This document shows positions 53,920-60,161 of a DNA stretch of 64,000 nt, one piece after another. Under the pieces are notes generated by a model. That model was not told the origin of the DNA. It saw only the letters and a list, made by a program, of their open reading frames with translations, and did not search any database. The stretch's first letter is position 1. Each line of letters opens with the position of its first letter. This DNA comes from Alphaproteobacteria bacterium. GTDB taxonomy: Bacteria > Pseudomonadota > Alphaproteobacteria > Caulobacterales > Hyphomonadaceae. The translations under genes and the position numbers were made by a program. The stretch lies in the NCBI GenBank assembly GCA_018827375.1, contig JAHJYW010000049.1, positions 124,001-188,000 of the forward strand, given 5' to 3'.

Positions 53920-54687
53920 CTAGCGCCGGTTGCTCAGGTCGTCGGCTTCGTATGTCGAGAAGTCGACAAGGGTGCCGGTCATCTGAAGATAGGCAATCAC
54001 GGCGTCCATTTCGGTGATGCGCGTGCGGTCACCATCAAAGTCGCCGATCGTGACGGTGCCTTTGCGGCCAGAGGCTTCTTCATAGCGCGCCACAAGAGCA
54101 TCCTGGCTGTCATAGTCAGCATTGGGATCGACCTGCGCAATGAGGTCTGTCTTTGCGTTCTCAATCATGTCGTCGGTGTACGGAACCCCTTCAAACCGCA
54201 GTGTCTTCAGGTGGTCCGCGATATTCTCGATATGGAGCGTGTTGTCCGACAGGAAGGCGTAAGGCGGCATGATCGACTCGGGCACCACAGACCGCGGGTT
54301 GGTCATGTGATCAAGGTGCCATTCGTTGGAATATTTGCCACCGACGCGCGCGAGATCCGGTCCGGTGCGCTTCGAACCCCACTGGAAGGGATGGTCGTAC
54401 ATGCTTTCTGCCGCCAGAGAATAAGGACCATAGCGCTCAACTTCATCACGTAGTGGTCGGATCATCTGGGAGTGACATGTGTAACAGCCTTCCCGGATGT
54501 AGACGTTGCGCCCCGCCAGTTCGAGCGGAGTGTAGGGACGCATGCCCTGTACTTTCTCGATTGTGTTCTCGAGGTAGAACAGGGGCGCGATTTCGACGAT
54601 GCCGCCGATTGCCACGACGACAAGGATGCCAACGGTCAAAAGCAATGAGTGTCGCTCAAGAGCCTGGTGTTTTTGGAAAAGTCCCAT
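53920..54687 (-). CDS. ccoO: cbb3 cytochrome c oxidase monoheme subunit CcoO
   Basis: 255 aa. One membrane helix (about 14-36) is followed by a cytochrome c domain with CYTCH at 68-72 ([14 protein letters not shown]) and [16 protein letters not shown]. The axial Met is likely in ESIMPPY. It follows ccoN by 11 bp. Confidence 0.96.
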
Positions 54688-54698
54688 GATTCCGGCTC

Positions 54699-56366
54699 CT
54701 ATTCGGCGGGTTGAAGGGCTGGTGCGAGGCTGGCTTCAGGGGAGGCGACATCTGCCGCCTCACCGTGTCCCAGCGCCGTGCGCACGAGGTTGTAAGCCAT
54801 GATGAGGGCGCCGGTTAAATAAAGGCCTCCGCCCACCATACGGATCATGTAGTTGATGTGCTTGGCATCAACGGTCTCGATGAAGCTGTATTCAAGGAAG
54901 CCGTATTCGTTATAGGCGCGCCACATCAGGCCTTCGATGATGCCTGCGAAATAGAGGGCAACGATGTAAAAAACGATGCCAATCGTTGCGAGCCAGAAGT
55001 GCCACTCGACCAGGTTCTTGGAATAAAGCGCAGGGCGCTTCCACAGCCACTGCGTGAGGCAGTAAAGCGCGCCGAAGGAGATGAACCCGACCCAGCCCAG
55101 CGAACCGGAGTGGACGTGCGCGATACCCCATTCTGTATAGTGCGACAGGGCGTTGACGGCCCGCACACTCATCAACGGTCCTTCGAATGTCGACATGCCG
55201 TAGAAGGCCAGAGACACCACCATCATCCGAATAACAGGATCGGTACGCAGTTTATCCCAAGCGCCAGACAGGGTCATGACACCGTTGATCATACCGCCCC
55301 AGCTAGGCATCCAAAGCATGATCGAGAAGGTCATGCCCAGAGTCTGCGCCCATTGGGGCAGGGCTGTGTAGTGCAGGTGGTGCGGACCGGCCCAGATGTA
55401 GATGAAGATCAGGGACCAGAAGTGTACGATCGACAGGCGGTAGGAATAGACCGGACGCTGTGCGCGTTTCGGAATGAAGTAATACATGATAGCCAGGAAG
55501 CCGGTGGTCAGGAAAAACCCAACGGCATTATGCCCGTACCACCACTGCGTCAGAGCATCCTGGACACCCGAGAACAGCTGGTAACTCTTTGAGCCGGACA
55601 GGTTCACCGGGATCGACAAGTTGTTCACGATGTGAAGCATCGCAATTGTCACGATGAAGGACAGGTAGAACCAGTTTGCTACATAGATATGTGGCTCTTT
55701 GCGCTTCCACAGCGTACCTAGGAAGACGAGCAGGTAGGCCACCCAGACAATGGTCAGCCAAAGGTCTGCATACCATTCAGGTTCAGCGTATTCCTTCGAT
55801 TGGGTCACGCCCATTAGGTAGCCGGTGCCGGCGATGACGATGAACAGGTTGTATCCCCAGAACACGAACCATGGCCAAAGACCGCCCGCGATACGTGTGC
55901 GGCTTGTGCGCTGAACAACATAGAAGCTTGTCGCGATGAGGACATTGCCGCCAAAGGCGAAGATTACTGCGGATGTATGAAGCGGGCGGAGCCGCCCGAA
56001 ATTGCTCCACCCAAACTCAGGAAAGTAAAAGATACTCGGCCAGGTCAGCTGCAAGGCAATAATGACGCCGACGAGAAAACCGGCAATGCCCCAGAACATA
56101 GCGGCGACGACACCGAATTTGACGATCATGTCCTCGTAGAAAGACTCATCGAAGGGATCTCGGCCCGTCAGTCCGCCCGCCCATATGCCTATCGTCACCA
56201 ACGCAAATGCGGTGAGGAAGAAGAATATCCAGGCATGCGCTTCCATCATGGGGTCGATCGCGTTGGCAGCGATCAGGAGCGATCCCAGGCATGCTATGGC
56301 AACGAGGGTCGCCACACCGGCAATACTGCCCGCAATTGACGACCGTGGCTTTGTGATTGTGCTCAC
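54699..56366 (-). CDS. ccoN: cbb3 cytochrome c oxidase catalytic subunit CcoN
   Basis: Heme-copper oxygen reductase subunit for microaerobic respiration, 555 aa from GTG 56366 ([10 protein letters not shown]), with AGGGG about eight bases upstream. The frame is open much further upstream without family similarity. About twelve membrane helices carry the heme/Cu ligands, including [16 protein letters not shown], the CuB region [29 protein letters not shown], and [20 protein letters not shown]. It is the first gene of the minus-strand ccoNOQPGHIS operon. Confidence 0.96.
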
Positions 56367-56502
56367 CGAATTTGCCCCTTTTAGACCTGCTTCGAATTGG
56401 TCGCAAAATGCGTTGAGCCGCGCGCAGGTTATATACGGGTAGTTACGGATGGGCCGGGCTGTCGCACCTTCGTAGACAAGAGCTACAAACAAGGAGGACG
56501 CC

Positions 56503-56781
56503 ATGTTCAGGATCGCGCACTTTTTGCCCGGAATCATCCTTTTGCTGGTGGGGCTGACGAAACTATGGACGCACACCCGGTCGTTGGAGGCATTCCTTGC
56601 CGTGCGTTGCGGGCCTGACGGTTTGACGGCGGCTGGTCACGGCTCTTTGTCTCTTTGGTCGATAATGCTGCGCGGTCACTGCTGGGGATGCCCAGTCGCC
56701 CTTACCGGTGCGGCGTTGATCGCTGCTGCGGCGGTATTCTGGGCAATGACGCCTACCGTGCTTAAATCATATATCCGCTAG
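56503..56781 (+). CDS. Small membrane protein of unknown function upstream of fixL
   Basis: 92 aa with an excellent ribosome-binding site (AAGGAGG) before ATG 56503. There are two hydrophobic segments: about 5-22 ([18 protein letters not shown]) and 64-84 ([18 protein letters not shown]). Between them is a cysteine-containing loop (VRCGPDG, then [11 protein letters not shown] with CxxC). I recognise no family. It is divergent from ccoN and precedes fixLJ by 67 bp, so a role linked to oxygen sensing, heme or copper is plausible but unproven. Confidence 0.75.
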
Positions 56782-56848
56782 GCAGAACGCTCTGCGCGTC
56801 TTACGGAGTCTAGACTTGCCCGGGCGCATGAAGAGAAAAGAGGACCTG

Positions 56849-58018
56849 ATGAGCACCGAATCATCCGATGGTGCGAAGGTCATGCCGTTGAATTCTCCTG
56901 ATCTCGCGACCTTACAATCTCACTTGGCCTCAATTCTGGACTCGGTGCCGGACGGCATGATTGTGATCGACGAGACGGGAAAGATCGTCGCTTTCAGTCG
57001 GGCGGCTGAAGCGCTTTTCGGCTATACGGCAGCGGAAATAATTGATCGCAACGTGCGGGAGCTGATGGCTGGTCGCGATGAAAGCAACCACGACAAGTAT
57101 ATCCAGAACTATCTGCAAACCGGCGAACGGCGAATTATTGGCATCGGCCGCGTTGTGACAGCAAGAAAGTCGGACGGGACACTGTTCACGATGGATCTCA
57201 AGATCGGCGAAGCGAAGATCGGTGAGCACTGGCTTTTTACGGCCTTCGTTCGAGACCTGACTGATCAGCGGAAATCTGAGCTGCGTATGCGCGAGATGCA
57301 GTCGGAACTCGTGCACTTTTCACGCTTGAGCGCCGTCGGGACAATGGCGTCCGCGCTGGCCCACGAGCTGAACCAGCCGCTGACTGCCGTGGCCAACTAC
57401 CTGGAGGCAGGGCGTGATCTCCTTGATCGTTCCGGTGATGATTCACGCGAAATTCTGCGAGAGGCGTTGGATGAAGGGGCGCGCCAGGCTGTACGCGCCG
57501 GCGACATCGTTCGGAAGCTGCGCGGCTATGTGTCCCGCGGTGAAATTGATGGCCGGTCGGTTGATCTTGAGCCACTTCTCAATGACGCTGCGGCCCTCGC
57601 CAGATTGTCCATGACCATATCGGACGTGCCTATCTTACTAAGAGTGGCGCCAGGACTCGGCAATGTCATTGCAGATCCGATTCAGGTTCAGCAGGTCGTC
57701 ATCAATCTTGTTCGCAATGCGCAGGAGGCGCTCGCCAGGATTGGCAGCCCGCAAATATCAATTGAAGCCGCCCCAGGCGCACCGGGATTTGTAAACGTCT
57801 CGGTTACCGACAACGGGCCGGGGCTTGATCCTGAAGTCCAGGCGATGCTGTTCAAGCCCTTCACGACATCGAAATCCGGCGGCATGGGACTTGGCTTGTC
57901 AATTTGCCAGACAATTGTCGAGGCGCACGGTGGGACAATCAGCGCCGAAGCTGTCGCGGGTGGCGGTACGTGTTTCCGGTTCACACTTCGCGTTGATCCG
58001 GCTATTCATGCCTTATGA
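56849..58018 (+). CDS. fixL: Oxygen-sensing heme histidine kinase FixL
   Basis: 389 aa from ATG 56849 (GAGGA upstream). There is no membrane segment, so this is a soluble FixL. The heme PAS domain (about 23-140) has the proximal His81 in NHDKYIQNYL and Arg101 in IIGIGRVV. The 20-residue spacing between them equals that of His200 and Arg220 in the Bradyrhizobium enzyme. The kinase has His172 in ASALAHELNQPLTAVANYLEA and ATPase motifs LVRNAQEAL, DNGPGLD and GMGLGLSIC. It overlaps fixJ by 4 bp. It likely controls the divergent cco operon. Confidence 0.93.
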   Translation: MSTESSDGAKVMPLNSPDLATLQSHLASILDSVPDGMIVIDETGKIVAFSRAAEALFGYTAAEIIDRNVRELMAGRDESNHDKYIQNYLQTGERRIIGIGRVVTARKSDGTLFTMDLKIGEAKIGEHWLFTAFVRDLTDQRKSELRMREMQSELVHFSRLSAVGTMASALAHELNQPLTAVANYLEAGRDLLDRSGDDSREILREALDEGARQAVRAGDIVRKLRGYVSRGEIDGRSVDLEPLLNDAAALARLSMTISDVPILLRVAPGLGNVIADPIQVQQVVINLVRNAQEALARIGSPQISIEAAPGAPGFVNVSVTDNGPGLDPEVQAMLFKPFTTSKSGGMGLGLSICQTIVEAHGGTISAEAVAGGGTCFRFTLRVDPAIHAL

Positions 58019-58647
58019 GCGACCAGCGGTTGATACATCTTGTCGATGATGACGAAGCTATACGCCATTCGGCGAGCTTCATGCTGCGCCATGCCGGCTT
58101 TGCGGTGAAGACCTATCAGGATGGCGTGACGTTCCTTGAGAATGCCAAAGAAGCGCTGCCGGGTTGCATCCTGCTTGACGTTCAGATGCCTCACATGGAT
58201 GGTCTGGAGGTTCAGGAGCGCCTCAATGAGTTGGGCGTCGCGCTTCCTGTTATTGTGTTGACCGGCCATGGGGACGTCGCAGTCGCTGTCAGGGCGATGA
58301 AAGCTGGCGCGGTCGATTTTGTCGAAAAACCTTATGAAAAACAGATGCTTGTGGGCGCTCTTGAGCGCGCTTTCGAGCGCTTGGAGGCCCGCAACCACCA
58401 GGACGTTCTGATGGATGAGGCCAAGGGGCGCGTAGAACGCCTTACACCGCGTGAGCGGGACGTGCTTGTCGGGCTTGTCGATGGCCTGACCAACAAGATG
58501 ATTGCCGAAAAGCTGGATATCTCGCCGCGCACAGTTGAGATTCACCGCGCCAACCTCATGGAAAAGCTGGATGCAACAAGCCTTTCCGGTGTGCTGCGCA
58601 TCGCGTTCGCAGCGGGCATTGGCCTCGATACAGCCGACGAAGGCTAG
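58015..58647 (+). CDS. fixJ: Response regulator FixJ
   Basis: 210 aa. The receiver domain (1-125) starts LIHLVDDDEAIRHSASFML and carries the phosphoacceptor Asp55 (CILLDVQMP) and Lys in VEKPY. The C-terminal LuxR-type DNA-binding domain has LTPRERDVLVGLVDGLTNKMIAEKL and SPRTVEIHRANLMEKL. It is phosphorylated by FixL at low oxygen in studied species. No fixK gene is in the window. Confidence 0.94.
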   Translation: MSDQRLIHLVDDDEAIRHSASFMLRHAGFAVKTYQDGVTFLENAKEALPGCILLDVQMPHMDGLEVQERLNELGVALPVIVLTGHGDVAVAVRAMKAGAVDFVEKPYEKQMLVGALERAFERLEARNHQDVLMDEAKGRVERLTPRERDVLVGLVDGLTNKMIAEKLDISPRTVEIHRANLMEKLDATSLSGVLRIAFAAGIGLDTADEG

Positions 58648-58717
58648 GGGCTTTTACTTAAAGACGAAGCTGTATTGCTGGGACATTCTCGAAGAATTGG
58701 CTCTGAAATGGAACAGC

Positions 58718-59104
58718 ATGGCGCAACCCGTAGCGACCAAGACGCAACATTGGATTGCCATTGTCGATGACAATGAGGCGGTCTGCCGCTCGCTTTCACT
58801 CCTGCTGCGATCAAAAGGCCATGGCGTGAAGACCTTTCCCAACGGGCTGGCATTTCTCAGCCGAGCGCCAATGGAAACATACAATTGCGTCCTGATCGAC
58901 TTCAAGATGTCCCCGCATGATGGTTTTGCACTCCTCCATGAGCTTCGCGCACGGGGAAATGATACTCCGGCGATCATGATCACGGGCTGGCAATCACCCG
59001 ATCTTCTTCGACAAGCGCTACAGGCTGGCTTCAAGGATGTTATCTATAAGCCGATGCTGGATGACACACTGCTTGCCGCGATCGATCGTGTGCTGCTTAT
59101 TTAA
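58718..59104 (+). CDS. Stand-alone FixJ-like receiver protein
   Basis: 128 aa from ATG 58718; TTG 58697 is an alternative. It is a single receiver domain with VDDNEAVCRSL, phosphoacceptor Asp61 (CVLIDFKMSPHDG), the Thr of MITGW and Lys111 (VIYKP), and no output domain. It is FixJ-like and 70 bp behind fixJ. It might act as a phosphate sink or feedback regulator of FixL, analogous in role to FixT, although FixT itself is not a classical phosphorylated receiver. The function is inferred. Confidence 0.82.
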   Translation: MAQPVATKTQHWIAIVDDNEAVCRSLSLLLRSKGHGVKTFPNGLAFLSRAPMETYNCVLIDFKMSPHDGFALLHELRARGNDTPAIMITGWQSPDLLRQALQAGFKDVIYKPMLDDTLLAAIDRVLLI

Positions 59105-59132
59105 GCCGTTTAGCGATTAATAGCAGAGAAGG

Positions 59133-59140
59133 GGGGAGGG
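59133..59140 (+). other. KOPS-like octamer GGGGAGGG
   Basis: Matches the E. coli FtsK-orienting consensus GGGNAGGG and points toward the probable dif site 168 bases downstream. It is the last of at least sixteen such octamers on the plus strand of this window. Whether this organism's FtsK reads this motif is not known. Confidence 0.45.
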
Positions 59141-59307
59141 ATGCGCGTTTGCCGTAGGGGGGGCTTAACAAGGTCCTAACGGGCATCTCGAGATGGTCGC
59201 CAGACAAAGCGCGTCGCGTGTGGGGACAGCGTGGTTGTGCGCATCCATCAGAGTCTAAAAATCAGCGCCACTAGCAAACCGTGTTGCCATGGGTGATATG
59301 AATCCTT

Positions 59308-59335
59308 GAGTCGCATAATCATCATTATGGGAAAT
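59308..59335 (+). other. dif: Probable chromosome dimer resolution site dif
   Basis: The 11-6-11 layout of a XerC/XerD site: left arm GAGTCGCATAA, centre TCATCA, right arm TTATGGGAAAT. Against E. coli dif (GGTGCGCATAA, six bases, TTATGTTAAAT) the arms match at 8/11 and 9/11, including the inner CGCATAA and TTATG that recombinases contact most. It lies in the only noncoding gap of its size nearby (59105-59351), which has no gene that I can support. The left arm contains GAGTC, a GANTC site for the CcrM methylase. Confidence 0.8.
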
Positions 59336-59351
59336 AATGATGACCGGTTAG

Positions 59352-60161
59352 TCAGGCGCTGAACGGGATTTCCATACCGTCATAGCCTGGCTCCACGCCA
59401 TCTGGCAGCTCCCCCTGCAACGTCCTGTAGTCCAGATCCACGTGCATGTTGGTCAGCACGGCCCGCGCAGGTTTCAGGTCTGCGATCCAGCCAAGCGCCT
59501 TCTCCAGATTGGCATGTGATGGATGCGGCGTGTAGCGCAGTGCGTCGACAACCAGAACATCCAGTCCCCTCAAATGCCTCAGGCTCGCCTCAGGCAGCTC
59601 ATTCACATCGTTGCAGTATGCGAGCCCGCCAATCCGGAAGCCGCAGCACCGGATACGCCCGTGCTCCATGTCGACCGGCAATAGCGTGACGTCTCCGCCA
59701 GAACCGCTGACTGTAAATTGATCATAAGGAATGATGTCCGGCATTGTCTGCAGGATCGGCGGATATCCCCCCATGCCTTCAAAGCAATACCGGAAGCGCG
59801 CGGTCAACGACTGGCGCGTCACCGCATCCATATGTGTCGGTATGGGCCTACGCATGATGTTCACGAGCGCTCGGACGTCGTCAATACCGTGCGTCTGGTC
59901 TGCGTGGTCGTGCGTGAAGACCAATCCATCAAGTACGCGAACATTGGCGGCGAGCAGCTGTTCGCGCAGGTCAGGTGACGTATCTATAAGCACGCGTGTC
60001 ATCGCGCCTTCAGGTCCCATTCGGTCCAGTAAGGCCGAGCAGCGGGTACGTCGGTTGCGAGGCTCATTCGGGTCGCAAACGCCCCAATCGCCGCCAACGC
60101 GGGGCACCCCACCGGATGAGCCAGTGCCCAGCAGGGTCAGGCGATGGTCCAGTCCGCTCAT
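59352..60161 (-). CDS. MBL-fold metallohydrolase (PhnP-like)
   Basis: 269 aa. The N-terminus LTLLGTGSSGGVPRVGGDWGVCDP and the metal motif VFTHDHADQTHGIDD place it in the PhnP/RNase Z-like beta-lactamase superfamily. Further ligands are His in DMEHG, Asp in VVDALRY and His in NMHVDLD. A phosphodiesterase activity is likely, but the substrate is unknown. It overlaps tatD by 4 bp and belongs to the dacA-tmk-holB-tatD run common in alphaproteobacteria. Confidence 0.88.
   Translation of the reverse strand: MSGLDHRLTLLGTGSSGGVPRVGGDWGVCDPNEPRNRRTRCSALLDRMGPEGAMTRVLIDTSPDLREQLLAANVRVLDGLVFTHDHADQTHGIDDVRALVNIMRRPIPTHMDAVTRQSLTARFRYCFEGMGGYPPILQTMPDIIPYDQFTVSGSGGDVTLLPVDMEHGRIRCCGFRIGGLAYCNDVNELPEASLRHLRGLDVLVVDALRYTPHPSHANLEKALGWIADLKPARAVLTNMHVDLDYRTLQGELPDGVEPGYDGMEIPFSA

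Follow-up and report, generated by a model that had tools for sequence, protein, structure and literature searches.

Between a pair of two-component regulatory genes and a metallohydrolase gene lies a 28-base sequence, GAGTCGCATAA-TCATCA-TTATGGGAAAT, and the question raised by this locus is whether these bases are the dif site of the chromosome, or whether they resemble dif for some other reason. The original prediction, made from the letters of the sequence, held that they form a probable XerCD dif site and that the surrounding DNA therefore belongs to the replication terminus. Evaluating this reading across the 64,000-nucleotide stretch that was analysed (hereafter the window, C47:124001-188000, on a 291-kb contig of a 3.63-Mb draft assembly of 50 contigs, G000), as well as in the rest of the assembly and in related genomes, we conclude, with a probability of roughly 97%, that these 28 bases are the dif site of the chromosome in a species of Hyphomonas. 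The dif reading is strongly supported by the uniqueness of the sequence in its genome, by its conservation as an island between divergent flanks, by its synteny with the same neighbouring gene and by a strand switch of KOPS-like octamers around it.

Sequence and setting of the site

Both the position (window 59308-59335, or C47:183308-183335 on the numbering of the contig) and the sequence of the site were recovered as originally given, and the description attached to them, an 11-6-11 sequence in a gene-free gap of 247 bases with arms matching those of E. coli dif at 8/11 (left) and 9/11 (right), proved correct in every part. The gap lies between the end of a response-regulator ORF at 59104 and the end of an MBL-fold ORF at 59352. 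Within the site, the two 11-bp arms form imperfect inverted repeats around the 6-bp centre, with CATAA and TTATG as their inner bases, and taken together they share 17 of 22 bases with the arms of E. coli dif, while the reverse complement of the site scores 13/22.

Scoring both strands of our own contig and of 40 sampled stretches of two relatives against the E. coli dif arms, we found 17/22 to be the single highest score among 2,179,724 positions, above a tail of 486 positions at 13, 98 at 14, 13 at 15 and 2 at 16. Searched with all 28 bases at up to 3 mismatches, the complete own assembly returned one match (0 for the reversed-pattern control), which corresponds to one copy per chromosome in this draft at that threshold. 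With a looser pattern of the arms, in which 16 bases were fixed and at most 3 mismatches tolerated, 6 places were hit in the assembly versus 7 in the control, but the only perfect match was the one at 59308-59335, the next best place carrying 2 mismatches. A better dif match elsewhere in the genome, which would have spoken against the original prediction, was thus found in the own assembly by neither the 28-base nor the arms-pattern search.

Table 1. Features of the site and its surroundings, in window coordinates.
Feature	Position	Strand	Basis or remark
Left 11-bp arm GAGTCGCATAA, probable XerC-binding arm	59308..59318	+	Similarity to E. coli dif; more variable outer bases
6-bp central region TCATCA	59319..59324	+	TC(A/T)(A/T)(T/C)A over 36 Hyphomonas genomes
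Right 11-bp arm TTATGGGAAAT, probable XerD-binding arm	59325..59335	+	
Gene-free gap of 247 bases, containing the site	59105..59351	.	ORF boundaries
Inverted repeat TCATCATTAT-GGGAA-ATAATGATGA over spacer and right arm	59319..59343	.	Likely incidental, or a weak hairpin at the 3' end of the hydrolase gene
MBL-fold metallohydrolase gene	59352..60161	-	Best family match, under curated cut-offs
FixJ-like response regulator gene, left flank	58015..58647	+	249.8 bits (cut-off 255)
ORF of a second response regulator, directly left of the gap	58502..59104	+	Receiver domain in residues 82-197
Final KOPS-like GGGNAGGG octamer on the plus strand ahead of the strand switch	59133..59140	+	C47:183133

On the left side of the gap, a FixL-like sensor kinase, the FixJ-like regulator and the second receiver protein follow one another in a row (window 56816-59104; best family matches, under cut-offs), and the true start of the second response regulator is probably downstream of its ORF start. 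Cytochrome oxidase-like ORFs, identified by reading alone, lie beside this row at 53920-56576.

Conservation and synteny in Hyphomonas

The flanking hydrolase finds its nearest relatives in H. chukchiensis (91% identity) and H. oceanitis (90%) among the best 80 of 283 loci of a genome-contig scan, and for this reason we place our genome in the genus Hyphomonas. In 17 of these best 80 of 283 loci the same core adjoins the hydrolase gene, the species including H. chukchiensis, H. oceanitis, H. jannaschiana, H. beringensis and H. pacifica.

Extending the arms-pattern search to 61 genomes, with a tolerance of 2 mismatches, we found matches in 51 of them, including 36 of the 37 Hyphomonas genomes, in all 37 of which the reversed control returned 0. 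The match was the only one in 34 of the 36, and G025 and G029 each held one further match with 2 mismatches (G025:C7:57046-57070 and G029:C12:2171-2195), both of which are probably due to chance. The one Hyphomonas genome in which the site was not found, G030 (completeness 90), also gave no match in a search with the MBL-fold protein, and the region is therefore probably missing from that assembly.

Stacked without gaps, the 36 genus sites carry a mean of 1.75 bits of information per position inside the 28 bases versus 0.24 and 0.23 in the two 60-base flanks, a conservation that is in part by construction because the search pattern itself fixed 16 bases (up to 2 mismatches). Positions that were free in the search, yet invariant in all 36 sites, are the TC and the A of the spacer as well as two G of the right arm, and the only variable positions of this arm are the 8th (A or C) and the last. 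In 36/36 loci the site follows just after the 3' end of the MBL-fold gene, with 15 to 123 bases between it and the end of the match, and a FixJ-like gene stands on the other side at a similar distance in 14/36 loci as fetched. Checked in relatives in this way, the 28 bases amount to a conserved island with divergent flanks beside the same gene in 36 of 37 Hyphomonas genomes, as the original prediction had expected of a dif site.

Terminus position and competing readings

Evaluating the polarity of the GGGNAGGG octamer along our own 291-kb contig, we found 52 of 53 copies on the strand that would direct FtsK towards the site from either side; the lone discordant copy is at C47:173287. The best interval for the switch, C47:183151-188001, runs in window numbering from 59151 to the first base after the window and encloses the site, and the next octamer past the switch is on the minus strand, starting 26 bases after the end of the window (C47:188026). 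Among octamers seen at least 25 times, with both arms of the contig read towards the site, the most polar was GGGCAGGG at 30:0, followed by one at 25:6. A positive control in E. coli MG1655 gave 8/8 octamers switching at dif over a 32-kb stretch.

In Alphaproteobacteria, hemE serves as a presumed marker of replication origins. Two single-contig relatives, each sampled in twenty 20-kb stretches, had 92/99 and 79/84 octamers concordant with an origin at hemE and a terminus at the site, and in both the GC skew passed from plus to minus across the site. The distance from hemE to the site came to 0.500, 0.508 and 0.510 of the circle in the single-contig genomes G036, G020 and G019, respectively (G016, likewise a single contig, was left out of this measurement). 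With dnaA as the origin marker instead, three relatives would have spoken against a terminus, since the site and dnaA are 0.349-0.364 of the chromosome apart in them, and this marker was rejected. In G036, G020 and G019 dnaA lies about 0.50-0.61 Mb from hemE, which makes it a poor origin marker in these Hyphomonas, and in G036 and G020 the KOPS and skew switch in samples either side of hemE shows that dnaA is not at the origin.

The skew of the own contig is less favourable, its cumulative curve reaching the maximum 16 kb left of the site, at C47:167223. Viewed in 20-kb bins, the wrong sign appears as slightly negative skew at 80001 and 160001, left of the site, and the bin containing the site is slightly negative as well; in G020, the bin at 765801 also has the wrong sign. 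The original placement of the window at the terminus is thus upheld by the strand switch of the octamers, which on the own contig falls at the site, by the sign change of the skew in two sampled relatives and by the position opposite hemE in three; the skew maximum, followed on the own side over the 291-kb contig, lies those 16 kb away. According to the account in PMC13342612, the KOPS polarity switch falls systematically at dif across most of the replicons treated there, and the switch at the Hyphomonas site is the signature that this source describes.

These results also bear on the alternatives, the nearest of which is that the MBL-fold gene has a transcription terminator or hairpin with an accidental likeness to dif. 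The inverted repeat TCATCATTAT-GGGAA-ATAATGATGA does lie 8 bases past the stop codon, a perfect 10-bp repeat on the 3' side of the gene into which the transcript strand folds at -13.4 kcal/mol (z -1.51), and at least 9 of its 10 positions pair in 7/36 genus sites, above what divergent flanks would lead one to expect. The fold is nonetheless ordinary, with 17 of 200 shuffles equalling or exceeding its stability, and 29 of the 36 sites retain at most 8 matching positions (3 to 5 in 21 of them) around an intact set of 28 bases. With the downstream half of the repeat lost in 29/36 relatives and the 28 bases kept without a hairpin, the terminator explanation is largely refuted, and it would leave the uniqueness of the site, the KOPS switch and the position opposite hemE unexplained; we regard it as very improbable. 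Recurrence of that downstream half in the remaining 7/36 may reflect shared ancestry or weak selection.

A Xer-dependent att site of an integrated phage or element (IMEX), in place of the host dif, would have a precedent, as IMEX-type elements use dif-like sites according to a review (PMC5357621). Such a site sits badly with what we observed: the sequence is single-copy in its own genome assembly, where a flanking second copy was not found, and the hydrolase gene adjoins it in 36/36 loci, with the FixJ-like gene opposite at a similar distance in 14/36. Nor did a viral contig collection contain an exact match to the core pattern, and on this absence together with the single copy we rejected the att-site explanation, to which we give almost no chance.

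A further suggestion concerned regulation rather than identity, namely that the GAGTC of the left arm, a CcrM (GANTC) site, could let methylation touch recombination, which the original prediction offered as speculation. GANTC occurs in the left arm of 13/36 genus sites, with AAGTC in its stead in 14/36, and we saw no sign that selection keeps it; CcrM control of dif was accordingly rejected, and the idea lacks support as a conserved feature. That CcrM methylation or strand extrusion tunes the timing of XerCD in the Hyphomonas subset combining a GAGTC left arm with the extended inverted repeat strikes us as a very long shot, although, if true, it would couple dimer resolution to the dimorphic cell cycle through one or the other.

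Recombinases, mechanism and known systems

Returning to the dif reading, the proteins it calls for are encoded, as two XerC/XerD-like proteins are found in the own genome (on C40 and C12) and FtsK gamma occurs once per genome in the 7 genomes searched, our own included. The C40 protein is best matched by a general tyrosine recombinase model (301.7 bits, over the cut-off of 279) and scores higher against XerD (284.7 bits, cut-off 329.6) than against XerC, while the best model for the C12 protein is XerC (291.9 bits, cut-off 335.15); both thus stay under the NCBIfam equivalog cut-offs for XerC and XerD. Matches to PF00589 above 130 bits number two in the own genome and one in each of six relatives. 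A third XerC/D-like tyrosine recombinase (L143, G000:C47:250413-250904), whose best models are XerA and integron-integrase, under their cut-offs, lies 67 kb from the site.

Judging from sequence, we favour XerC on the left arm and XerD on the right, because the site resembles E. coli dif more closely in this orientation than in the reverse (17 versus 13/22) and because the outer left bases are variable. Orientation relative to KOPS was tried as a guide to the arms and rejected. In MG1655 dif is read from the minus strand and has plus octamers to its left, and compared with it the better-matching orientation of our site relative to KOPS polarity is reversed; in G046 and G054, which have two sites each, the two are oppositely oriented with octamers converging on both. 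Across ten order-level sites, the flanks as fetched held 90 octamers, 84 of them concordant, and G037 accounts for 4 of the 6 that were not.

Outside the genus, in another family of the order, two dif-like sites were seen on different contigs in G046 (L008/L238-L241), G054 (L010/L242-L245) and G038 (L009). Octamers converge per site at 11/11 and 15/15 in G046 and at 7/8 and 3/3 in G054, and this convergence on each site suggests two dif-bearing replicons in each of these two genomes.

By analogy with the known system, the site would come into use once recombination has joined two sister chromosomes as a dimer. The GGGNAGGG (KOPS) octamers, which on either side point towards the site, would guide FtsK at the septum, and FtsK would pump DNA to the point where one copy of the site meets the other and would there activate XerD, presumably bound to the right arm, and XerC, presumably bound to the left, which would cleave and exchange strands over the 6-bp centre such that the chromosomes separate.

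We interpret the finding as a canonical dif site, with no evidence for a new mechanism, and it leaves the understanding of dif unchanged. What it provides is a fixed terminus for the chromosome of a marine bacterium and a genus-wide dif consensus, roughly AAGTCGCATAATCWWYATTATGGGMAAT, with uses in ordering drafts, in marker-frequency work and in the detection of dif-integrating elements. Sites of this kind were predicted across bacteria by Kono et al. 2011 (PMC3025954); the name Hyphomonas is absent from the main text of that paper, and among the papers searched none joined Hyphomonas with "dif site". We nevertheless consider an earlier prediction of a Hyphomonas dif likely.

Compared with E. 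coli dif, the Hyphomonas site shares the 11-6-11 layout, 17/22 arm bases with identical inner bases in both arms, and a placement where the GGGNAGGG octamers switch strand, whereas it differs in having GGG in the right arm (GTT in E. coli), GAGT in the outer left arm (GGTG) and TCATCA as spacer (TGTATA). Closer in lineage, the alphaproteobacterium Dinoroseobacter shibae is described as having a 28-bp dif at its chromosome terminus (PMC7901474), to which the site is likened by length and position only: 28 bp, at the terminus of an alphaproteobacterial chromosome.
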